A DNA stretch of 64,000 nucleotides from Fibrobacter sp. UWB11 (GTDB taxonomy: Bacteria; Fibrobacterota; Fibrobacteria; Fibrobacterales; Fibrobacteraceae): assembly GCF_900143015.1 (NCBI RefSeq), contig NZ_FSRT01000001.1, positions 124,001 through 188,000 of the forward strand, written 5' to 3'. The translations under genes were made by a program, and so were the position numbers. The notes beneath the pieces were generated by a model, which was not told the origin of the DNA, searched no databases, and saw only the letters and a program-made list of their open reading frames with translations. Each line of letters opens with the position of its first letter. The first letter of the stretch is position 1. Shown here piece by piece: positions 463 through 8,325 of this stretch.

Positions 463-529
463 ATTTATATTGTTGGTGAACAAATGTGTAATCCTGTCTT
501 TTTTGCTTGTAGATGGGAAGGAGTAAATG

Positions 530-1507
530 ATGAAAAATGATGTCCCGGCAGTTGCCAAGTCTGAATTTTCCCTGATAGACGAAAATATGCTTAAATCGCG
601 AATCTACACGATTCGTGGGCTCAAAGTCATGCTTGATGCTGACTTGGCGGAGATTTATGGGTATAGTACGAAGGCTTTTAATCAACAGATTAAGAATAAT
701 ATCGAAAAATTCGATGAAGATTTTCGCTTTCAGCTGGATTCTGAGGAAATTGAAGGCTTATCGAGGTCAAAATTTTTGACCTCGATGCAAATTAAAGGTG
801 TAAAGGGAGGACGTTCTTACGCTCCCTACGCTTTTACCGAGCAAGGCATTTATATGCTTATGACTGTTCTCAAGGGCGAACGGGCTACGGCGCAAAGCAA
901 GGCGCTTATCCGGCTTTTCAAGCAGATGAAGGACTATATCATTGCTGAAAATCGGAATTTGTTGAGTAACGAAGGCCTTGTACAAATAGCCATGCAAACG
1001 GAACGGAATACTAAGGATATTGCCGTCATTCAGTCCGACCTTCAGAAGGTCATGGAAAATTTCGTTGATCCTTCCACCTACAAGCATTTCTTGATTCTGA
1101 ATGGAAAAAAGTTGGAAGCGGATGTTGCTTATACGCAAATTTATGGCATGGCAAAGAAATCCATCGCCATTATTGACGATTATGTTGGCGTGAAAACGCT
1201 CGATCTTTTGCGAGGAATTGCCAAGGGTGTTTCTGTGACAATTTATAGCGATGAACAAGGATTTGAATCGCTGACAGATCAAATTAAGAATGATTTCTCG
1301 GCGGCTCGCCCTGATGTAAAGCTCTTCACGGGTCGGACAAGGGGTAAAATCCATGACCGCTATATTTTTCTGGATTACGGTTTAAAAGGTGAAAAGCTTT
1401 TTCACTGTGGTGCTTCATCTAAAGATGCTGGTAACAAAATTACTACCATCATGCAGATTGAGAATACAGAAATTTACCACATATTGATGGATAAATTAAA
1501 AAGATAA
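530..1507 (+). CDS. ORF6N-domain protein with C-terminal PLD-like domain
   Basis: Predicted DNA-binding protein of the ORF6N type, a domain common in phage antirepressor-like and mobile-element proteins. Residues about 15-110 carry the ORF6N pattern (IYTIRGLKVMLDADLAEIYG, then FxFQLxxEE and AFTEQGIYML). After a linker, residues about 180-325 form a second domain with an HDRYIFLD motif followed by FHCGASSKDAG, which resembles a single phospholipase-D-like HxRY(x)3D motif. Two ATGs lie at 527 and 530; the AAGGAG at 518-523 is 6 nt from the second and only 3 nt from the first, so I prefer 530. It converges on the SLOG gene with a 2-nt gap. Nuclease activity is inference; the DNA-binding assignment is better supported. 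Confidence 0.85.
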   Translation: MKNDVPAVAKSEFSLIDENMLKSRIYTIRGLKVMLDADLAEIYGYSTKAFNQQIKNNIEKFDEDFRFQLDSEEIEGLSRSKFLTSMQIKGVKGGRSYAPYAFTEQGIYMLMTVLKGERATAQSKALIRLFKQMKDYIIAENRNLLSNEGLVQIAMQTERNTKDIAVIQSDLQKVMENFVDPSTYKHFLILNGKKLEADVAYTQIYGMAKKSIAIIDDYVGVKTLDLLRGIAKGVSVTIYSDEQGFESLTDQIKNDFSAARPDVKLFTGRTRGKIHDRYIFLDYGLKGEKLFHCGASSKDAGNKITTIMQIENTEIYHILMDKLKR

Positions 1508-2570: not shown

Positions 2571-3722
2571 TTAGAAATCCTCTTCTATAATTTCGAAGGC
2601 TTTAGGCTCGCTTTGTTTTACATACCATGGTCCGTAATGTTTTGTGCCTAACGATATGTCGATTGGAACTGATAAATTTAATTCCTTAATGCAATTAATA
2701 TTTTTTTCAACAATGTCGTTAACGCCATCCCAAGCCAAATATACTTTTTCATCTAAAATTGAAATTATTAGGTCGCAATCGTCTGACATCTGTTGTAGAT
2801 AGACGGATTCGGCAACTTTATTTGGGAGTATTTTTGTTCTTTCTGCACAAGACTGAATTTTTGCCGAAGTCACGAAGTTGTTTTTTGGGGTATCTCCATT
2901 ACAATAAAAGGTTATGTTGTTGTAAGCCTTTGATTCTAGGTATTTTTGTATGAGTATATCCGTGTCATCGCTATCGCCAACGAGAATTTCGTCTTTGTTT
3001 TTGATGATGTAGTCAAGAATCGTTTTGGCAAAATTGGGTAGTTCAGCAAAGGATTTTCCGTAAACAAAAATCTTTATGTATGATCTTTTTCGTAAAATTG
3101 TTGATTCCGCCAAGTCTTGCAACTGATAATAATTCCGCGAAAAGATGTAATCAATTTCAGGAATGATTGCTGCGTGGATGTTTTTGTGCTTGTATGATTT
3201 AAGGTGTCTTGCCAAAGGCGCTGATGGGTCGAATTTTCCGAAAACGAACGTCATCATTTCTCCTTCATAGTTTTGGACGCTTCGACATATTTTTCTCGTA
3301 TAGTATGCGAGTTGAGGGTTGATTAGCAAAAAACGACTAATCTGAGGAAAGGATGCGTGCCCTAAGCATCCAACGGTAGCTCCTTGAGAGATGCCTATGA
3401 AATAAATCTTGGTCGCATCGATGATTCCGATTTCTGACGAGACGATACATGCGAGTTCAGCCATTTGATCACTGCATGATGATGATGGAGCCACATTGCT
3501 CGGAGATGGTGTCGATGCGCTCACTACCGTGAATCCGTATGAGTCTCGCAGTTCGTAGGCGAACTGTATGTATTCACTTTTGTAGCCATAAACGGAATCT
3601 TCTAGATCTGTTTTGATTATAAGAATTTTCTGATGATCACGACCAAAGATGATGCCGTAATCTATTTCGTTGTTAGATATGTGTGTAATTGTCAAATCAA
3701 AGGATAAATTTGATTTTTTCAT
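2571..3722 (-). CDS. Fused hydrolase-SLOG protein with degenerate active sites
   Basis: A 383-residue protein whose residues 1-210 align throughout with the neighbouring hydrolase and residues 215-345 with the neighbouring SLOG protein, followed by a short extra tail. The elbow Ser112 (GISQG) and Asp165 are kept, but the catalytic His is replaced by Tyr192 (EIDYIFS against GQDHYFS). The three SLOG loops are also altered: GSKS to YGKS, GDCYGVD to GDSDDTD, and WDGKSKGT to WDGVNDIV. It therefore looks like a pseudoenzyme paralogue of the two genes downstream. SD AAGGA lies 6 nt before the ATG. It is the first gene of the set and is preceded by a palindrome array at 3814-4024. Confidence 0.75.
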   Translation of the reverse strand: MKKSNLSFDLTITHISNNEIDYGIIFGRDHQKILIIKTDLEDSVYGYKSEYIQFAYELRDSYGFTVVSASTPSPSNVAPSSSCSDQMAELACIVSSEIGIIDATKIYFIGISQGATVGCLGHASFPQISRFLLINPQLAYYTRKICRSVQNYEGEMMTFVFGKFDPSAPLARHLKSYKHKNIHAAIIPEIDYIFSRNYYQLQDLAESTILRKRSYIKIFVYGKSFAELPNFAKTILDYIIKNKDEILVGDSDDTDILIQKYLESKAYNNITFYCNGDTPKNNFVTSAKIQSCAERTKILPNKVAESVYLQQMSDDCDLIISILDEKVYLAWDGVNDIVEKNINCIKELNLSVPIDISLGTKHYGPWYVKQSEPKAFEIIEEDF

Positions 3723-3813
3723 GGGTTTTCCTTTTTGTTGTATCTCTAAAAATAGATTTTCACTGCGACAAATAATGTCGTGATTTAAAGAAAGTGAAAA
3801 ATAGAATTTTAGG

Positions 3814-4024
3814 AATTTGCAAAATATGCAAATTGCTTTTTTACTTCTAAGGTGTAAAATTTGCGCCTTAGAAAAGAAATTTGATAATTGTTAATAATCA
3901 AGGTCGAAATTTTCGGCCTTGAACCCCAAAAAACAACTTGAAGTCAAAATTTTTGACTTCAAGTTGGGTGGAATACTTGTGTTGCAAAAAATCTTGATTT
4001 GCAAAAAAATGCACATCAAGATTT
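3814..4024. repeat. Array of five unrelated palindromes
   Basis: Five consecutive inverted repeats of different sequence: 3814-3834 (8-bp arms), 3845-3873 (14-nt arms around one base, two T-G positions), 3898-3922 (12-nt arms, one T-G position), 3934-3966 (16-bp perfect arms around a single T) and 3989-4024 (15-nt arms, one mismatch, A-rich loop). They are separated by only 11-25 nt and fill the gap between the GNAT stop and the hydrolase-SLOG start. The T-G positions pair only in RNA or single strand of the plus strand. Not simple terminators, as no consistent T-tract follows. Apart from this array, the gap 3723-4046 holds no gene I can see. Confidence 0.8.
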
Positions 4025-4046: not shown

Positions 4047-4670
4047 TTACAACTGTCCGGGGAGTACTAGCTTTTCCTTAGGTGGGAAGCTTGCTTCGTA
4101 CTTCTCGAATTCTTCGGGCATTCGTTCGGTCACAAAATAGCCCTCGGGGTCTTTGTACGAGCCCGTCACTCCGTCCAAGAATCCCTCGTCGAGTTCCTTG
4201 CACAAGAAATATGGCGCGTCGCTGTTCGGGTCGTCGGCGTAGCGGATGCCCTTGGTGTAAGCGGGGACGAATCCGCACTTGCCGTAGAATCTGATGTTCC
4301 CGACGATGAGCAGGCAACCTGCGCCCATCTTGCGGGCGAGTTCCATGGAATAGTCGAGGAGCGCCTTGCCGTATCCCTGTCGCTTGTAGTCGGGGTGGAT
4401 GCTGATGGGCCCGAAGGTCATCATGCGAATTTTGCGTCCGTCGTCATCATCGATTTTCGACCACGCGTACATCACGTGTCCGATAATTTGTCCGTCAACT
4501 TCCATGACGAGCGAAAGTTCCGGGATAAAGCTTGGGTCGTTCCTGTAATGGTGGAGGACAAAATGCTCCACGCAGCCGGGACGGTAAACGTTCCAGAATG
4601 CTTCTCGGGTGAGATTTTCGACGATTTTAAAGTCGCGCGGTTGTTCCGTGCGGATATTGTATTTTTTCAT
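4047..4670 (-). CDS. GNAT-family N-acetyltransferase (YhbS-like)
   Basis: A 207-residue acetyl-CoA-dependent acyltransferase of the GNAT fold. The acetyl-CoA-binding motif A reads HPDYKRQGYGKALL, preceded by the central strand MMTFGPISI, and the later FYGKCGF segment is typical of the YhbS-like group. The C-terminal 60 residues are an acidic, lysine-containing extension. The acceptor cannot be told from sequence. Its coding DNA is visibly more GC-rich than the AT-rich genes to its left, and it is bracketed by palindromes (3814-4024 downstream, 4710-4747 upstream), so it may be an independent unit. Confidence 0.85.
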   Translation of the reverse strand: MKKYNIRTEQPRDFKIVENLTREAFWNVYRPGCVEHFVLHHYRNDPSFIPELSLVMEVDGQIIGHVMYAWSKIDDDDGRKIRMMTFGPISIHPDYKRQGYGKALLDYSMELARKMGAGCLLIVGNIRFYGKCGFVPAYTKGIRYADDPNSDAPYFLCKELDEGFLDGVTGSYKDPEGYFVTERMPEEFEKYEASFPPKEKLVLPGQL

Positions 4671-4964
4671 TGTTTATCTCCAAAATTTTTGTGTGAATAG
4701 GCACAATCACCTTGGAAGACCGCCTTGAAAACATTTGTCTTCCAAGGCCCTAAACAATGAACCAATATTTACTAGATAACATCCAGCCTCTGATAAAAGT
4801 GATGCCCTAAATATACATAGTTTTGCCGTGTTTGGGGCGAAAATGCGCTTTTTTCAGACGAATCACGAATTTTAGGTGTTGTTGTGTCGTGTTTATGAAA
4901 GTTTTACGAGGAAATTTTTCGGAAAAATCTAAATTTCAATGTTAGTATATGAGGATTTTTGAAT
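4671..4964. other. Divergent intergenic region
   Basis: This gap separates the minus-strand GNAT gene from the plus-strand phosphatase lipoprotein, so it should carry two divergent promoters. Besides the inverted repeat at 4710-4747 I see AT-rich DNA with no open frame worth reporting and no promoter elements clear enough to place. Confidence 0.5.
4710..4747. repeat. Perfect 11-bp inverted repeat upstream of GNAT gene
   Basis: CCTTGGAAGAC at 4710-4720 is repeated in inverse at 4737-4747 with a 16-nt spacer. It lies 40 nt upstream of the GNAT start and could be a leader hairpin, an operator, or one more member of the palindrome group on the other side of the gene. Confidence 0.7.
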
Positions 4965-6041
4965 ATGAAAAATATTTCCGCTAAGTATCTTGTGAGCGCC
5001 CTTTTTGTCGGGCTTTGTATGTTTGCCGGTTGTGGCGACGATTCGTCGAACTCTTTCCCGGCTGCTCCGAATACGGGGGCCGTTTCTTCGTCTAGTGTAG
5101 ATCAGCCGCAAAGCCAAGCTGGCGATACCCAGTCCTCTTCTAGCGAAATTGATTCGAACCCCATTGCTAATGCTTCTAGTTCTTCGGAGACTGCTCCTGT
5201 TGTCACGACAAGCTCGTCCGATGTCGCTTTGTCGTCGAGCTCTGCCGGGACTGTTGTGAACGGTCCGTTTACTTTTGCAACGACTCCGGGTACACTTGCT
5301 TTGGCTCCGGATGCCGATGGCTTCTATGATATGGGCGATGTCTATAAGGCTGTGCCCAAGACTAGCAAGATTGCTTTTGTGATTCGCCATTCCAAGCGTC
5401 AAAAGAATAATTTGGGAACAGAATCGACGCTGACTCCCATTGGTATTACAATGGCTAAGACCCTCGGTGAAAAGCTGGTGGGCGATGAATCGTTCTATTA
5501 TGCTTCGACAAACTTCTTGCGTACCCGCGCAACTTGCGAAAACATTGCCGCAGGCCGTGGCGAAACCGCTGAAGTCGTGACATGGGATGGCATTAATGGC
5601 GGTTATTTCTTGACCGTGCCTAGCGATTCGCTGGATGCGCTTGTCTCTAAGAAGGGCGGAAATCCGAAGTTCATTGCGCAATATTCTTATGGCGTTCCAT
5701 TCTCTTATGCCGCTACGATTGGCGCAACTCTTTCAACTTATTTCTACGATTTGTATCCTCGCGGCAATCAGTTCGTGAACGAAGTTATTGTAGCGAACAT
5801 GCCGAATTGGAAGCGCGTGAGTGTGCTTGTGAGCCATGACATGTTGGTTGAACCGCTGATTGTGTTTGTCTCGAATCGGACCATCAATTTGAAAGCTTAT
5901 GAATCTCCGTTCCACTGGGTCAACTATTTGTCGGGCATTGCCGTGATTGTTGATGAAGCTGGCGCAGTGACGGCACTCCCGGTTCGCGGTGATGCGGTTG
6001 GCTGGATGATTCCGAGCCAAGAAGTCGACGAAGGTGTTTAA
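4965..6041 (+). CDS. Histidine-phosphatase-superfamily lipoprotein
   Basis: A 358-residue surface or periplasmic lipoprotein: signal peptide ending in the lipobox MFAGC, then a serine-rich linker to about residue 95, then a phosphoglycerate-mutase-like histidine phosphatase domain. The family's catalytic His is H142 in VIRHSKR, the second conserved His is H291 in LVSHDML, and FLRTRATCENI matches the typical RTxxT segment. The classical RHG is RHS here. The in-frame TTG at 4959 is only 3 nt from GAGGA (4951-4955), while ATG 4965 has 9 nt, so I use 4965. The stop overlaps the next start by one base. Substrate unknown. Confidence 0.85.
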   Translation: MKNISAKYLVSALFVGLCMFAGCGDDSSNSFPAAPNTGAVSSSSVDQPQSQAGDTQSSSSEIDSNPIANASSSSETAPVVTTSSSDVALSSSSAGTVVNGPFTFATTPGTLALAPDADGFYDMGDVYKAVPKTSKIAFVIRHSKRQKNNLGTESTLTPIGITMAKTLGEKLVGDESFYYASTNFLRTRATCENIAAGRGETAEVVTWDGINGGYFLTVPSDSLDALVSKKGGNPKFIAQYSYGVPFSYAATIGATLSTYFYDLYPRGNQFVNEVIVANMPNWKRVSVLVSHDMLVEPLIVFVSNRTINLKAYESPFHWVNYLSGIAVIVDEAGAVTALPVRGDAVGWMIPSQEVDEGV

Positions 6042-6787: not shown

Positions 6788-8325
6788 CGTTAGTCGTCTT
6801 TATCCTTTATCTGCTAATGATGCTTGGCATCGGTGCATATTTCTCTCGCAAGGCGAACAGCCTGAACGCCTATTACCTCGGTAACCGCGGCATGAACAAG
6901 TGGGTGGTTGCCATGTCCGCCCAGGCCTCCGACATGAGCGGCTGGATGCTGATGGGCCTTCCGGGCGCCGTGTTCGTGAGCGGTTTTTCCGAAGCTTGGA
7001 TCGGCATTGGCCTTGTCATCGGCACTTACTTCAACTGGAAAATCGTCGGTCGCAGGCTCCGCAAGTACAGCCATTTCTGTGGCGACTCGATTACGCTTCC
7101 GGACTTTTTCTCGAACCGTTTCCGCGACAATAAGGGCATCATCCGTGTGATTGCCTCGATTTTCATTCTCGCGTTCTTCCTCTTCTACACGGTCTCGGGC
7201 TTTGTCGCCTGCGCTAAGTTGTTCGGAACTATCTTTGGAATGAACTACACGACGGGCCTTATCCTTGGTGCGGTCGTGGTGGTGAGTTACACGTTTATGG
7301 GCGGGTTCTTTGCGGTGTGTTGGACTGACTTTATCCAGGCTTCGATGATGCTTATCGCAGTACTTGTGATTCCGATGATGATCATGAGCGGCTCGGGCGG
7401 TTTTGCCCCGACGATGGATGCGGTAAACGCCCAGAATCCCTACCTGATGAGCCTTTTCACGAATGCGACAACAGGCAAGTCCATTGGCCTTATTGCGCTG
7501 ATTTCAAGTCTCTCGTGGGGACTTGGCTACTTTGGCATGCCGCACATCCTCGTGCGCTTTATGTCCATCAAGAACGCCGAAGAAATCAAGGATTCTCGCC
7601 GTATCGCCATGACTTGGGTGATTATCTGCCTTGCTGCAGTCGTGATGATTGCTCTCCTCGGTCGCTATTACGTGACGGCACACGGCATCACCGTTGATGA
7701 CCCGGAACGCATTTTCATGATTCTCTGCCAAGCTCTTTGCCATCCGGCGATTGCAGCCATCCTTATGGCCGCCATTCTCGCAGCCATTATGAGTACTTCC
7801 GACTCCCAGCTCCTCGTGTCTGCATCTGCATTCAGTAACGACCTCTACAAGCACCTGTTCCGCAAGAACGCAAGCAACAAGGAAGTGATGTGGGTGAGCC
7901 GTGGCGTTGTCGTGGTGATTACGCTCATCGCGGTGATTGTCGCTATGCAGGGCGCTCCGAGTGCTGACGGCATGAAGCACGGCAAGAGCTTCCTTGATGT
8001 GGTGATGAGCCTCGTGAGCTTTGCTTGGGGCGGCTTCGGTGCGACCTTTGGCCCGATTATGTTGCTCGCACTCTTCTGGAAACGCACGACTCTCGCTGGC
8101 GCTGTCAGCGGTATGCTCGTGGGTGGCCTTACGACGTTTATCTGGAAGTTCTACCTTTCCGGATTCTCCGCCGAAATCTTCCAGATCTATGAACTCGTGC
8201 CGGGCTTTATCCTTTCCTTCGTTACAATCGTCGTCGTGAGCCTTTTGACCAAGGAACCCTCTGCCGAAATCCAGCTGGAATTTGACCGCGTGGAAAGCAC
8301 TCGCCTGAGCGATATGAAACTGTAA
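6784..8325 (+). CDS. putP: Sodium/proline symporter (SSS family)
   Basis: A 513-residue integral membrane protein with about 13 hydrophobic segments, the normal length for the sodium:solute symporter family. The N-terminal YYLGNRGMNKW and MSAQASDMSGWMLMGLPG segments are PutP signatures, as is the conserved YTFMGGFFAVCWTDFIQA. It should import proline with sodium across the inner membrane. GGAGG at 6775-6779 lies 4 nt before ATG 6784, inside the end of the upstream gene. A rho-independent terminator follows at 8357. Proline rather than another substrate is inferred from overall similarity to PutP. Confidence 0.9.
   Translation: MTLVVFILYLLMMLGIGAYFSRKANSLNAYYLGNRGMNKWVVAMSAQASDMSGWMLMGLPGAVFVSGFSEAWIGIGLVIGTYFNWKIVGRRLRKYSHFCGDSITLPDFFSNRFRDNKGIIRVIASIFILAFFLFYTVSGFVACAKLFGTIFGMNYTTGLILGAVVVVSYTFMGGFFAVCWTDFIQASMMLIAVLVIPMMIMSGSGGFAPTMDAVNAQNPYLMSLFTNATTGKSIGLIALISSLSWGLGYFGMPHILVRFMSIKNAEEIKDSRRIAMTWVIICLAAVVMIALLGRYYVTAHGITVDDPERIFMILCQALCHPAIAAILMAAILAAIMSTSDSQLLVSASAFSNDLYKHLFRKNASNKEVMWVSRGVVVVITLIAVIVAMQGAPSADGMKHGKSFLDVVMSLVSFAWGGFGATFGPIMLLALFWKRTTLAGAVSGMLVGGLTTFIWKFYLSGFSAEIFQIYELVPGFILSFVTIVVVSLLTKEPSAEIQLEFDRVESTRLSDMKL

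Follow-up and report, generated by a model that had tools for sequence, protein, structure and literature searches.

Putative ORF6N/RhuM operators in a palindrome array of Fibrobacter, and a proposed operator inside the coding sequence of the regulators themselves

We begin by considering the intergenic gap between a GNAT gene and a hydrolase-SLOG gene in the window, that is, the whole stretch of 64,000 nucleotides analysed here (C1:124001-188000 of the 3.76-Mb genome of Fibrobacter sp. UWB11). The gap holds five inverted repeats at 3811-4024 and, judged from their sequences, these are probably operators to which proteins of the ORF6N/RhuM class bind; that the array also regulates the hydrolase-SLOG operon has, in our estimate, a little less than an even chance. 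Palindromes of the same class occur inside the coding sequences of ORF6N and RhuM genes and, because their half-site bases covary with residues of the recognition helix, each gene seems to embed the operator of its own product. Among the functions that the first-pass annotation had offered for the repeats, protein binding appears strongly supported, since the class of the palindrome and the recognition helix of the ORF6N or RhuM protein made from that gene change together.

The ORF6N-domain regulator of the window (527..1507, plus strand) is a protein of 326 aa whose predicted recognition helix (residues 48-57) contains K49, Q53 and N57. Its gene carries a perfect palindrome, ATCGAGGTCAAAATTTTTGACCTCGAT, at 760..786 (plus strand), which encodes residues 78-87 (LSRSKFLTSM) and which we propose as the operator of this same protein. 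Both this protein and the RhuM protein of the island match PDC-S05 in PADLOC, a candidate defence family. The genes on the two sides of the array lie on the minus strand: the GNAT acetyltransferase gene (4047..4670) is upstream, with its end at 4047, and the hydrolase-SLOG-like gene (2571..3722), named so by the first-pass annotation and without a match in Pfam, PHROGs or PADLOC, is directly downstream. P4, the fourth of the palindromes, stands upstream of a conserved leader (3732..3804, minus strand) that contains the box ACGACATTATTTGTCGCAGT (3762-3781) and is common to other genes of related islands.

The class to which we assign the five palindromes has a length of ~25-33 bp, a short AT-rich centre and Watson-Crick arms; P4 is a perfect example, and P1, P2, P3 and P5 have a few mismatches. 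No strand is assigned to any of them, and the residue numbers in their class names are columns of the ORF6N-domain alignment discussed below. P1 (3811-3837) is an imperfect palindrome of a RhuM subtype whose coding version reads NLHFLQI; its arms agree with those of a RhuM-gene palindrome at 23/26 positions while the flanks agree at 17%, and a coding copy is found in the L034 gene at 4461-5333. P2 (3845-3873) is of the ORF6N type, with half-site ..GGYGCAAA, two T-G mismatches, and class R59/N63 by the helix code, and P3 (3898-3922) is of the same type, with half-site ..GGTCGAA, one T-G mismatch, and class E59/N63. Their arms match coding palindromes at 21/26 and 23/26 positions respectively, and as a pair they align over 82 bp, at 74% identity, with a double palindrome in an ORF6N gene of G001 that has the equal spacing of 51 nt. 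P4 (3934-3966) is a perfect 33-bp palindrome of the ORF6N type with 16-bp arms, half-site AGTCAAA and class Q59/N63, which is also the class of the window ORF6N protein. Its arms match a coding palindrome at 26/26 positions, and over 33/33 positions it is identical to palindromes in ORF6N genes at G000:C2:61873 (in its own genome), G004:C6:119936 and G014:C7:149886, with dissimilar flanks. P5 (3989-4024), an ORF6N-type palindrome of class R59/N63 with its centre shifted by 1 nt and a coding version that reads LMCKKCTSSW, shares 94% of 32 bp with ORF6N genes in G016 and G013; this match comes from a similarity search, the centre of P5 not being resolved in the arm-by-arm comparison used for P1-P4. 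According to the helix code, the residue required at column 59 is Glu for P3 (GGTCGAA) and Arg for P2 and P5 (GTGCAAA-like).

This concentration of palindromes is unusual. Five that score at least 9.5 occur in 324 bp, versus 0-3 (mode 0) in 400 dinucleotide shuffles, and the array is the densest 250-bp palindrome cluster in 364 kb sampled from the genome, the runners-up having four. The five tight palindromes reported by the first-pass annotation are therefore confirmed, as are its T-G oppositions on the plus strand in two of the repeats (two in P2 and one in P3), and the same array does not turn up at random elsewhere. Pure chance, as the origin of the array and of the coding palindromes, is ruled out by the dinucleotide shuffles together with the synonymous null described below. 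Our whole-genome statements derive from pattern searches and a sample of 364-437 kb. By such a search the core RTCAAANNNTTTGAY is found at seven places: three ORF6N genes of the class, P4, and three others, one of which is a core-only match in a long coding frame and two of which have non-AT centres, so that P4 is the sole extragenic candidate with extended arms. Smaller clusters of 3-4 palindromes are present near other ORF6N/RhuM genes (L038:4553-4703, L060:1319-1393, L042:4272-4420), with site classes that are often unlike the gene's own.

We turn to the genes that carry the same kind of palindrome. ORF6N genes in viral contigs and in genomes of many phyla were recognised by conserved peptides from other parts of the domain, which kept the palindrome from influencing the choice of genes. 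A palindrome of ~31 bp is present in 174/181 of these genes, the extra Fibrobacter genes included; before that addition it was present in 134/138 distinct genes, and the centre fell on the first codon base in 136/138. Within Fibrobacter, 36/37 distinct ORF6N genes have a tight palindrome at one fixed coding place, the arms of which vary between genes yet stay self-complementary. RhuM genes, first met by chance in the flanks and then gathered from viral contigs, have a palindrome at a comparable place in 67/69 cases, with the centre on the third codon base. For one of the viral RhuM genes, no E. coli homologue is present in the collection examined. As a control from the same genus, only 2/30 Bro-N genes reach the score that is attained by 30/34 ORF6N genes; Phage_pRha is of no use as a control family, its matches in Fibrobacter being largely the ORF6N genes themselves. 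The stretch of the ORF6N protein that the palindrome encodes falls in a partly low-confidence loop of the structure model, and a PDB fold search with this model of moderate confidence (pLDDT 74) gives no confident match.

Some ORF6N genes show variations on this arrangement. In a subtype with VVANCDH or VVTNCDH (L115:789, L154:3445) the palindrome uses the remaining codon phase. An ORF6N gene at L083 near 2280 has several in-frame palindromes in one loop (LRSKIWTSS, LRCKNCTSS, LRSKKSVSSW); the site can expand within the coding sequence. Another, at L184:6640 (also L044:1797), has a second matching palindrome just after the start codon (WRSQFATSK).

The next question is whether the palindrome is kept at the level of the DNA or is a by-product of the protein sequence. 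When the protein sequence is held fixed and codons are drawn by local usage, all 11 inner pairs are expected in 0.007 ORF6N genes and are observed in 76/138; for RhuM, full pairing is found in 24/67 genes and expected in 0.14. Across 85 gene pairs at 75-97% identity, synonymous codon differences amount to 13/630 (2.1%) in the palindrome versus 2415/9715 (24.9%) in the flanks, and the frozen stretch measures 33 nt (codons -6 to +4), exactly over the palindrome. The synonymous null and the frozen synonymous sites together rule out constraint on the protein alone. Codons covary across the centre, with TCG (Ser)...GCG (Ala) seen 35 times, TCA...GTG (Val) 34, TCA-AAA...TTG (Leu) 20 and TGC...TGC (Cys) 12, and the arm covariation scores of 0.65 and 0.82 compare with 0.20 and 0.25 after shuffling and with at most 0.18 in slid controls. 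The pairing is strictly Watson-Crick: at synonymous positions, G at -8 is paired with C in 62 genes and opposed by T in 1, for T at -11 the counts are 112 genes with A and 0 with G, and where synonymous codons permit, G-T wobble is as rare as A-C, the arms being compensated. Covarying arm changes, which the first-pass annotation had proposed to look for in related strains, are strong at the homologous sites within ORF6N/RhuM genes, whereas a similarity search of relatives finds no orthologous array. Individual palindromes of the array do have matches at many sites, and most of these matches fall within ORF6N genes.

For the code itself, the ORF6N-domain alignment columns upstream of the palindrome are compared with the palindrome bases. 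The strongest associations belong to columns 55, 59 and 63, which are spaced by four on one helix and correspond to K49, Q53 and N57 of the window protein. Column 63 goes with base -3 (Arg with C in 82 genes, Asn with A in 78, Tyr or Ala with G in 8), column 59 with bases -5/-4 (Gln with CA in 79, Glu with CG in 55, Arg with GC in 22), and Lys at column 55 with G at -7. Pairings of Arg or Lys with G and of Asn or Gln with A fit common protein-DNA contacts. If the prediction draws on sequences less than 70% identical, base -3 is given correctly in 98% of cases (baseline 47%) and bases -5/-4 in 91% (baseline 46%); for base -7 the gain is weak (81% versus 74%). In close pairs of genes, a difference at base -3 is accompanied by one at residue 63 in 100% of cases, as against 6% of the pairs in which that base is the same; for base -4 and residue 59 the corresponding values are 90% and 16%. 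RhuM follows the same pattern with its own helix.

Shared ancestry is addressed with a tree from which the helix columns are left out. On this tree the state A at base -4 changes at least 40 times and Gln59 changes 39 times; between base -4 and residue 59, 15.8/18 independent supported pairs agree and 0 oppose (median p 3e-5), and between base -3 and residue 63, 4.8/6 agree and 0 oppose, with too few changes for significance alone. Among the control columns listed (67, 71, 75) there is no association on the tree. As these columns lie between the helix and the palindrome, their lack of association disfavours a swapped segment in which helix and palindrome hitchhike together. The simplest reading of this coevolution is that the palindrome within each ORF6N or RhuM gene is bound by the product of that gene.

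Combining these observations, we infer a mechanism in which a dimer of each ORF6N/RhuM protein would bind the palindrome in its own gene and any matching extragenic sites. Binding at the intragenic site could give autoregulation, for example as an elongation roadblock. The window ORF6N protein, with K49, Q53 and N57, is predicted to bind both 760-786 and P4, and from P4 it would influence the hydrolase-SLOG operon, while P1, P2, P3 and P5 would be sites of other specificity classes (RhuM, R59/N63 and E59/N63). With the cognate site lying in the stretch of the gene that codes for DNA binding, the specificity of a protein and its site would be transferred together and evolve together, and clusters of mixed specificity could answer to ORF6N/RhuM regulators that arrive with different phages and mobile elements. 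The broader picture, in which these genes encode mobile regulators and are themselves the targets, and in which site clusters let a defence-type operon respond to incoming regulators, is speculative, and we would sooner doubt it than adopt it. Autoregulation by way of the leader is a different matter. The leader palindromes are no closer to the site of their own gene than to decoys (mean rank 0.53 +/- 0.023 for ORF6N and 0.51 for RhuM), a result that lends no support to simple autoregulation by operators in the leader, and we set aside the leader sites as cognate autoregulatory operators; it is the intragenic site that matches by the helix code.

The array in the window could also be a non-functional deposit of mobile or copied palindrome units, its copies decaying, with the intragenic sites perhaps functional still; this is a tentative reading that we hold to be possible but on the improbable side. 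It would fit the non-coding palindromes near ORF6N/RhuM genes, whose arms mostly agree with coding ones at 21-26/26 positions while their flanks (~17-38%) are at the level of chance. It would also fit the different classes of neighbouring palindromes, the mismatches in four of the five, the failure of our search to find a cognate ORF6N gene for P2, P3 or P5 in their own genome, and the spacing of P2 and P3, which together with part of the spacer is common to an ORF6N coding segment. Apart from this partial spacer similarity, the same chance-level flanks lead us to reject the array as a relic of former genes. A deposit accounts less well for P4, which is perfect and whose site class is that of an ORF6N gene 2.4 kb away, and for the position of similar non-coding palindromes, 21 of which are upstream of ORF6N genes and 9 downstream. 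The window array may serve regulation as a cluster of sites, or it may be a deposit in decay, and P1, P2, P3 and P5, given their mismatches, may be decaying. A further proposal, which we regard as unlikely, has P4 and P5 simply terminate the GNAT gene, as intrinsic terminators in tandem, and treats the remaining palindromes as incidental. On the minus strand T6 follows both P4 (found by a terminator scan) and P5 (found by reading), and in G006 the same junction has an ordinary terminator. P4 does have the form of an intrinsic terminator, a GC-containing hairpin and then a T run, and it may terminate GNAT transcripts on the minus strand, but P1, P2 and P3 have no T runs on that strand, all five palindromes fall in ORF6N/RhuM classes, and P4 is identical over its 33 bp to sites in coding sequence, where a terminator role is unexpected.

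The palindromes might instead act as hairpins of RNA or single-stranded DNA, whether as an antisense structured RNA, an attenuator or an ssDNA recognition site. Both strands of the array do fold strongly (z-scores of -9.0 for the plus and -8.4 for the minus strand) with short loops, and the T-G oppositions of P2 and P3 had been taken by the first-pass annotation as a sign that such folding was kept, with an antisense structured RNA among its suggestions. Neither idea is upheld, because G-T wobble across the family is as rare as A-C at the synonymous positions that permit it; given this avoidance, the T-G oppositions more probably reflect single C-to-T changes in copies undergoing decay. An Rfam search of the array returns sub-threshold matches only, none at the gathering level, and a code between bases and recognition-helix residues has no reason under RNA. 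With wobble avoided and Rfam matches absent we reject the RNA hairpin, and hairpin action in general is very improbable. Template switching, a mutation process that keeps quasi-palindromes perfect where the protein tolerates them and needs no selection, is scarcely credible either. It would agree with the strict Watson-Crick symmetry of arms that drift and with a palindrome that encodes a partly low-confidence loop of the model. It would copy changes rather than stop them, while synonymous change is ~12-fold below that of the flanks, a deficit that disfavours neutral perfection of the palindrome; nor does it account for covariation with helix residues encoded well upstream.

Binding sites of ORF6N/RhuM proteins, which we retain as the preferred reading, can be compared with known systems. 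The lac O2 site in lacZ and the gal OI site in galE are intragenic operators of autoregulated or operon genes, and the likeness is a dyad-symmetric operator within coding sequence. In contrast to lac and gal, the site proposed for ORF6N/RhuM falls in the part of the regulator gene that encodes the DNA-binding domain, extends to two whole families and coevolves with the helix. In the relevant passages of the source, PARCELs are tandem 75-nt repeats that encode 25-residue domains and form imperfect palindromes (PMC2996958); dyad symmetry in coding DNA, linkage to mobile-element genes and variable copy number are shared with the ORF6N/RhuM sites, whereas those passages describe no protein-DNA covariation and do not mention ORF6N. 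The ORF6N/RhuM palindromes encode ~10 residues, usually in single copy, and not a tandem 25-residue repeat domain. The coding palindromic elements of Rickettsia, Wolbachia and M. jannaschii, as cited in PMC2996958, are likewise palindromes in frame within genes, but they are insertions at assorted positions of unrelated genes, whereas the ORF6N/RhuM palindrome keeps a single position throughout two families of regulators and is matched to a helix. As far as these passages go, the nearest precedents (PARCELs, PMC2996958, and the other coding palindromes) contain no description of a protein-DNA code.

REP elements are palindromes tagged with GTAG/CGTC (PMC3733652), and they resemble the present sites in being 20-40-bp palindromes, some of them intergenic. 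The window-type palindromes differ by their low copy number and coding location: the P4 core GTCAAAATTTTTGAC has 4 copies in 3.76 Mb, two of them inside ORF6N genes, and no GTAG/CGTC tag is found in the five sequences, which are thus not REP/BIME elements. As for the genes that carry the site, they are those of the phage antirepressor / ORF6N, Rha, Bro-N superfamily and PADLOC PDC-S05. The parts of the literature on this superfamily that we covered describe no built-in operator, and the sampled Bro-N genes, unlike ORF6N and RhuM, are without a comparable palindrome. In titles and abstracts of the open-access literature searched, no earlier description of built-in sites of ORF6N/RhuM was found.

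If the proposed reading is true, a readable protein-DNA code exists for two families of regulators that are common in phages and defence islands but little studied, and the sequence of each gene reveals the cognate site of its product. The regulons of many genes would then be predictable without experiments, and specificity would be testable by single changes in the helix. Nature would here offer a clear example of coding DNA that also serves as a binding site for its own protein product, and the conservation of the ORF6N motif L-[RK]-S-[QK]-x-x-T-S, in what looks in part like a flexible loop, would be explained.

Some further features lie outside the palindromes. The C-terminal half of the window ORF6N protein (residues ~180-326) presumably resembles a PLD-type domain (KIHDRYIFLD...HCGASSKD). 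The leader box ACGACATTATTTGTCGCAGT has two exact copies in the genome, both in this island beside a WYL regulator gene (L024:4555-5574), and is possibly a promoter/operator region of that regulator. The box or close variants are seen at L024 near 7119-7182, L027:3307-3331 and L029:4862-4886, and the box precedes different island genes (hydrolase-SLOG, an AAA ATPase and a 219-aa gene). In two relatives a double AAA ATPase of 774-776 aa, IetA-like in PADLOC (L027:3371-5695, L025:4749-7079) and absent from the window, separates the leader box from the hydrolase gene.
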